The notes under the pieces were generated by a model that worked only from the letters and a program-made list of their open reading frames with translations, had not been told where the DNA came from and made no database searches. From Chlorobaculum parvum NCIB 8327 (GTDB taxonomy: Bacteria; Bacteroidota; Chlorobiia; Chlorobiales; Chlorobiaceae), in contig NC_011027.1 in NCBI RefSeq assembly GCF_000020505.1, forward strand, positions 2,216,001 through 2,280,000: a stretch of 64,000 nucleotides of DNA, given 5' to 3'. Below, in pieces: positions 40,278 to 42,462 of this stretch (the first letter of the stretch is position 1; each line of letters begins with the position of its first letter). The position numbers were made by a program, and so were the translations under genes.

Positions 40278-41054
40278 ATGCCTAAGAGCTCTGGAATAAC
40301 TCCGCTTCGACCATCAATTTTCAACGGCATTGCGGGGCTTGTGGCGCTTCAGACGACCCGCATGGGAGGCATGAGTGCTGCGCCGATGGAGTCGCTGAAT
40401 TTCGGGACGCATGTCGGAGACGATCCGGAGTGTGTGCGGGAGAATGAGCAGCGGCTTTGCGCTTTTCTGGGGATCAGCCCCGGGAGCATCGTGACGACCG
40501 GGCAGGTGCATGGCACGGAGATTGCCATCGTCACAAAACCGGGCAAGCTCGATGGATATGACGCGCTTATCACCAATACCCCTGGAATCTTCGTCGGTAT
40601 CCTGACCGCCGATTGCTATCCGATTTTGATCCACGACCGCCGGACGGGAGCCTGCGGCGCAGCACATGCAGGATGGCAGGGCACGGCAGGTCGCATCGCC
40701 GAAAAGACGGTCGAAGCCATGAGCGAAGCATTCGGAAGCCGTCCGGAGGATTGCCTCGCCTGGGTCGGCACCGGCATTTCAAGCGAACGCTACGAAATAG
40801 GCGCGGAAGTAGCGGCCCGTTTCGAGCACAGCTACTTCAAGCCATCGCCATCCGGCGAAGGGCGGAAACTGCTCGATCTCTCGGCGGCGAACCGCGACCA
40901 GCTTCTCGAAGCGGGCATCCCGCCGTCGCAGGTGCAGTGCTCGGAGTTCTGCTCATACCGGGACGCCGACCGATTCTTCTCCTACCGCCGAGACAACGGC
41001 AAAACCGGTCGGATGCTCGCGCTGATCGGGCTCAGGACCTCTTCAACCCCCTGA
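40278..41054 (+). CDS. pgeF: PgeF/YfiH (LACC1) family protein
   Basis: 258 aa. The metal ligands of the family are visible: TTGQVHGTEIAIV, LTADCYPILIHD and AAHAGWQGTAGRIAEK (His, Cys, His). Relatives were described as polyphenol oxidases and purine nucleoside phosphorylases, and in E. coli as acting on misincorporated peptidoglycan precursors; the natural role here is not known. Its 3' end overlaps the converging small gene at 41032 by 23 bases. Confidence 0.9.
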   Translation: MPKSSGITPLRPSIFNGIAGLVALQTTRMGGMSAAPMESLNFGTHVGDDPECVRENEQRLCAFLGISPGSIVTTGQVHGTEIAIVTKPGKLDGYDALITNTPGIFVGILTADCYPILIHDRRTGACGAAHAGWQGTAGRIAEKTVEAMSEAFGSRPEDCLAWVGTGISSERYEIGAEVAARFEHSYFKPSPSGEGRKLLDLSAANRDQLLEAGIPPSQVQCSEFCSYRDADRFFSYRRDNGKTGRMLALIGLRTSSTP

Positions 41055-41238
41055 CGGCCACCAGCATGGTGCCGAGTTTTTCTTCGAGGGCCTGAAGGGC
41101 GGCGATGTCGTCCGGGTTGAGGTCATCCGATACGACATCGTAGGTGGAGAACGAAAGCAGGGTTTTGCCGAGCTTCTGTTCGAGGGAACGAATCTCTTCG
41201 AGTTGCTCAGAGGTGAGTTTGGACAGGCTGGATAACAT
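41032..41238 (-). CDS. Small hypothetical protein
   Basis: 68 aa, acidic with Leu and Glu heptads: MLSSLSKLTSEQLEEIRSLE and later DDIAALQALEEKLGTMLVAV suggest two helices and possibly a coiled coil. A helix start LSKLTSEQLEEIRSLE resembles small Chlorobi proteins of unknown function, but I cannot name a family. GGAGATGC lies right before the ATG. It overlaps the end of pgeF antiparallel. Confidence 0.6.
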   Translation of the reverse strand: MLSSLSKLTSEQLEEIRSLEQKLGKTLLSFSTYDVVSDDLNPDDIAALQALEEKLGTMLVAVRGLKRS

Positions 41239-41444: not shown

Positions 41445-42462
41445 ATGAGCAACAATGACCTCCTGAACTACTACCACAGGGCCAACGAGCTGGTCTTCAA
41501 GGGCCTCATCGAGTTCAGCTGCATGAAAGCCGCTATCGAACTTGACCTTTTCAGCCACATGGCCGAAGGGCCCAAGGACCTCGCAACGCTGGCTGCCGAT
41601 ACCGCTTCGGTGCCGCCCCGTCTCGAAATGCTCCTTGAGACACTCCGCCAGATGCGCGTCATTAAACTTGAGGATGGAAAGTGGTCATTGACCGAGTTCG
41701 CAGAAGTACATGTTCTCCCCGAACCCGAAAGAGCCGAACCTGCATCAGACCCCGGTTGCCAAGGCGATGGCGTTCCTTGCCGATGATTTCTACATGGGCC
41801 TTGCCGACGCCGTTAGGGGCCAGAAGAACTTCAAGGGCCAGGTGCCCTATCCGCCGGTTACCCGCGAAGATAACCTCTACTTCGAGGAAATTCACCGCAG
41901 TAATGCAAAGTTCGCTATCCAGCTCCTGCTCGAAGAGGCCAAGCTCGACGGCGTCAAGAAGATGATCGACGTCGGCGGCGGCATCGGCGACATCTCCGCT
42001 GCCATGCTCAAGCACTTCCCGGAACTCGATTCGACGATTCTGAACCTGCCCGGCGCCATCGATCTGGTCAATGAAAACGCCGCCGAGAAGGGCGTAGCCG
42101 ATCGTCTTCGCGGCATCGCCGTCGATATTTACAAAGAGGACTACCCGGAAACCGACGCGGTCATGTTCTGCCGTATCCTCTACTCGGCAAACGAGCAGCT
42201 CTCGACCATCATGTGCAAAAAGGCGTTTGACGCCATGCAGTCCGGCGGTCGTCTGCTGATTCTCGACATGGTGATCGACGATCCGGAAAACCCGAACTTC
42301 GACTACCTGAGCCACTACATCCTCGGCGCTGGAATGCCTTTCTCGGTGCTCGGCTTCAAGGAGCAGGCCCGCTACAAGGAGATTCTCGAAAGCCTCGGCT
42401 ACAAGGATGTCACCATGGTGCGCAAGTACGACCACCTGCTCGTTCAGGCTGTGAAGCCGTAA
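41445..42462 (+). pseudogene. bchU: Frameshifted bacteriochlorophyll C-20 methyltransferase bchU
   Basis: BchU methylates the C-20 meso position of the chlorin ring, the step that makes bacteriochlorophyll c rather than d. Here it is split into two frames: the first runs from the ATG at 41445 through the dimerisation and substrate-entry part (KWSLTEFAE) and then stops at 41786; the second holds the SAM domain (MIDVGGGIGDISAAMLKHF, motif I). Comparison with the C. tepidum protein, recalled as ...EFADYMFSP..., shows one extra base at 41703-41706 (GAAG for GAC), after which TACATGTTCTCC continues. Removing one base gives 338 codons, the length of intact BchU. Everything else is undamaged, so the loss is recent. 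The gene is monocistronic. Confidence 0.93.

Follow-up and report, generated by a model that had tools for sequence, protein, structure and literature searches.

Bacteriochlorophyll d and BchU in green sulfur bacteria

C-20 methylation by BchU red-shifts absorption by about 15 nm, and Chlorobaculum tepidum produces bacteriochlorophyll (BChl) d and grows more slowly after loss of bchU (PMC3415949). The chlorosomes of Chlorobaculum parvum contain BChl d (PMC6166724). A passage in a review attributes to Maresca et al. 2004 the discovery of a naturally occurring BChl d strain, left unnamed in that passage, whose bchU is frameshifted (PMC7242693), and the title of Saga et al. 2003 announces an exclusively BChl c-producing substrain in a BChl d-producing culture of Chlorobium vibrioforme NCIB 8327 (PMC10158934). 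Cba. parvum is the newer name of C. vibrioforme f. thiosulfatophilum (PMC11269200), and NCIB 8327 is its one listed strain. HemB of the genome analysed here matched PDB 1w1z, the C. vibrioforme ALAD (PMC6262466), at all 328 residues compared, a strong pointer to NCIB 8327 as the probable strain. In this study, the insertion in bchU, its single copy, the intact orthologues and the youth of the lesion were computed, while the role of the enzyme and the production of BChl d were taken from the literature. Broch-Due and Ormerod (1978) reportedly selected BChl c cells from a BChl d strain under low light, and a reverting frameshift would explain such cells.

The bchU gene of Cba. parvum NCIB 8327 is split between two frames

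The window (the whole stretch of 64,000 nucleotides analysed here) carries bchU, the gene for the bacteriochlorophyllide d C-20 methyltransferase, on the + strand at 41445..42462. From ATG to TAA it measures 1018 nt (339 codons plus one base), which is not a multiple of 3. The two overlapping open reading frames (ORFs) of the initial annotation (41445-41786 and 41710-42462) are present as described, in two different frames of the + strand. The N-terminal ORF (113 aa) comprises BchU residues 1-86 and approximately 27 out-of-frame residues, ends in ...TEFAEVHVLPEPERAEPASDPGCQGDGVPCR, and matches the Pfam Dimerisation domain (PF08100) and positions 1-74 of the BchU equivalog model TIGR02716. The C-terminal ORF (250 aa, starting with MFSPNPKEPN; the sequence just 5' of 41710 is GCAGAAGTACATG) harbours a complete SAM-dependent O-methyltransferase domain (Methyltransf_2, PF00891). 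Alone, it scored 479.7 bits against TIGR02716, above the curated cut-off of 276.1, and it matched PDB chain 1x19 across all 250 residues (541 bits). This chain was deposited under the name CrtF-related protein, and we take it to be the BchU of C. tepidum. As both ORFs match TIGR02716 and the second matches 1x19 over its full length, a chance match is not an issue, and the assignment of the gene as bchU in the initial annotation holds. The dimerisation and methyltransferase domains are both encoded but in separate frames, and not in one chain; the window bchU is a pseudogene of the BchU (TIGR02716) family. Immediately upstream of bchU, the opposite strand carries a 68-aa ORF (41032-41238, -).

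The frame is lost at 41703..41706 (+), where the window has GAAG and every Chlorobaculum relative having that stretch has a single codon (GAC, GAT or GAG), as the initial annotation had proposed. The window reads GCA GAAG TAC ATG into position 41710; the other Chlorobaculum genomes read GCC GAC/GAT/GAG TAC ATG, a few of them with ..TTC ATG, always with one codon, and the protein at this place is FADY, FAEY or FADF followed by MF. The extra base is not assignable to one letter (A or G), and the lesion is defined as a net +1 within these four positions. By reading of the sequence, there is no homopolymer run at the site.

An alignment with bchU from close strains had been suggested as a check. 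The orthologue set consisted of approximately 60 loci, many of them present twice as they came from two collections, so that the distinct organisms are fewer than the loci. All of the full-length orthologues fetched, including those of the sister genus, showed a single open frame of 1005-1017 nt, compared to 1018 nt in the window. The nearest genomes (97-98% protein identity) harbour an intact bchU, and the intact BchU of locus L005 has 338 aa, in agreement with the repaired length expected beforehand (approximately 338 aa).

We conclude that a +1 insertion close to codon 87, recent and spontaneous in origin, very probably inactivates the chromosomal bchU of Cba. parvum NCIB 8327 (formerly Chlorobium vibrioforme), with BChl d as the result. 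Translation would depart from the bchU frame after residue 86 and stop at 41786, and full-length BchU would not be produced. Bacteriochlorophyllide d would be left without C-20 methylation and would be esterified in this state by BchK, and the BChl d formed would fill the chlorosomes and shift their absorption to a shorter wavelength. The prediction of a BChl d strain from the loss of bchU is supported by the BChl d described in Cba. parvum (PMC6166724).

The bchU lesion is young

Four close genomes were compared and polarised by four outgroups, in order to identify lineage-specific changes in bchU. The sites unique to the window lineage comprised 17 silent changes and 1 replacement (A236T), indicating that selection on bchU acted until very recently. 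The lesion is young and decay has not begun. Some other Chlorobiaceae genomes lack bchU entirely, as might be expected if the frameshift were an old loss fixed in the Chlorobaculum lineage instead of a recent strain-level mutation. However, the 17:1 ratio of silent to replacement changes on the window branch rejects long-standing relaxed selection, and the intact bchU of the nearest genomes also argues against an old loss, making it very improbable.

Residual BchU activity and sequence quality

The C-terminal ORF begins with ATG and encodes the catalytic domain in full, and BChl c and d have both been reported in NCIB 8327 cultures, as far as the title of Saga et al. 2003 tells (PMC10158934). 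Programmed frameshifting, or internal initiation at the ATG at 41710, might provide some active BchU and a BChl c fraction without reversion. However, the site showed neither a homopolymer nor an obvious slippery or +1 frameshift motif on reading, and the RNA structure around the insertion was not in excess of that in shuffled sequences (z 0.20). Programmed frameshifting was therefore rejected, and classical phase variation is likewise unsupported. Moreover, the same title describes a separate substrain that produces BChl c exclusively, in keeping with reversion or genetic heterogeneity. We hold residual activity to be highly unlikely, and infer that the C-terminal ORF contributes no useful enzyme activity.

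The genome is closed (one contig of 2,289,249 bases, 99.94% complete) and no second bchU copy was found anywhere in it, rejecting rescue by another copy. As a quality control, the ORFs around the syntenic place in genome G019 (2,154,946 bases), presumably C. tepidum, were aligned to the window by tblastn. Only one of the 38 ORFs with orthologues in the window was split across two frames, namely bchU, and generally poor sequence was rejected. Sequencing and assembly errors usually take the form of single-base indels, and the remainder of the gene is free of decay, both of which would be compatible with an error in a bchU that is in fact intact. There is scarcely any chance of such an error, considering that none of the other compared genes is split, that the site lacks a homopolymer, that Cba. 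parvum is a BChl d producer (PMC6166724) and that the bchU of a natural BChl d strain was independently reported to be frameshifted, according to the review passage (PMC7242693).

bchU in other Chlorobiaceae

In a survey of 86 Chlorobiaceae genomes, many of them metagenome bins, bchU was intact in nearly all. At least four genomes of the sister genus (G030, G052, G066 and G070; 98-99% complete) showed no bchU above the family cut-off, and all of them encode chlorosome proteins of the CsmA family; the stated completeness is 99% in G030, G052 and G066. In G070 (98% complete), the arsA-like and bchQ-like genes are intact and ordered as in G079 within a 130-kb contig, and bchU is missing downstream of them (G070:C46; L122 7090-9807). 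G070 is expected to be a BChl d producer. The contigs of G032 and G072 break off within the bchQ-like gene, and the absence of bchU from these two genomes may be an assembly gap.

A 172-aa C-terminal BchU ORF was found in G082 (L119 4213-4825) and, as a second copy, in G073 (L131 4840-5355). G073 also harbours an intact bchU, while G082 (81% complete) has none. In L119, approximately 34 residues of BchQ are fused to the last 190 of BchU, and this BchQ-BchU fusion in G082 is a deletion scar. G079 harbours two full-length bchU genes (339 and 338 aa) separated by approximately 4.5 kb, and the arsA-like gene is also present twice (L120 2292-9124). This duplication could feed the deletions seen in other genomes.

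bciD and bacteriochlorophyll f

The bciD gene was chosen by its position between cruB and bchF2, a cluster described previously (cruB-bciD-bchF2; PMC3613366). BciD orthologues (at least 86% identical; one gene partial) were present in nine genomes, every one of them with bchU. None of the 86 Chlorobiaceae genomes combined the presence of bciD with the absence of bchU, the genotype of a natural BChl f producer. As no bchU-less genome has bciD, no natural BChl f is predicted; to our knowledge, BChl f is reported to be absent from nature. In G001, a probable BciD (L129 7124-8329; 402 aa, motif CDNNNTGRSCRFC) belongs to a cruB-bciD-bchF2 cluster adjoining a second BchQ-like gene. A metagenome bin that bears the label Chlorobaculum parvum HyVt-633 encodes a BciD (L033; G002:C13:2632-3837) with 100% identity to the Cba. 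limnaeum protein; the bin has 9% stated contamination, and this gene may be the product of mis-binning. The radical SAM genes adjacent to bchF in Cba. limnaeum (L110 and L111) were rejected as bciD, since one or both are also present in green species (67-95% identity); we infer that they encode BchQ and a BchQ-like paralogue.

The young window frameshift, the four near-complete genomes devoid of bchU, the two deletion remnants and the lack of bciD in every bchU-less genome led us to consider, as a tentative and rather doubtful reading, that bchU loss might be recurrent and ongoing in green sulfur bacteria, as though green species could do without C-20 methylation and brown (BChl e) species could not. 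Were this true, comparative genomics would offer a test of the ecology of BChl d versus BChl c and of the lack of BChl f in nature.

Comparison with known systems

The natural BChl d strain of Maresca et al. 2004 (J Bacteriol 186:2558; 8327d / NCIB 8327) harbours the same kind of lesion in the same gene, as far as the review passage describes it (PMC7242693), and is very probably the same strain, given the HemB identity with the C. vibrioforme 1w1z chain. Within that description no difference was found, the likeness being at the level of the kind of lesion and not base for base. The sequenced strain is most likely the frameshifted BChl d strain that the initial annotation named 'Chlorobium vibrioforme 8327d'. 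The bchU frameshift and the BChl d phenotype are thus an already known genotype and phenotype, and not a prediction. Here a one-base change is linked to an antenna pigment that is visibly different, a classic example of how a photopigment can be predicted from the genotype.

The bchU knockout of Chlorobaculum limnaeum is similar in that lost C-20 methylation leads to a 20-desmethyl chlorosome pigment (PMC3415949). By contrast, it was made in the laboratory in a brown, bciD-bearing strain and yields BChl f instead of BChl d, while bciD is absent from the window genome. The BchU of C. tepidum (PDB 1x19; TIGR02716) is the orthologue of the window gene, with the same genomic surroundings and approximately 97% identity over the C-terminal 250 residues. 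It differs in being unbroken, with 338 aa, and C. tepidum makes BChl c.
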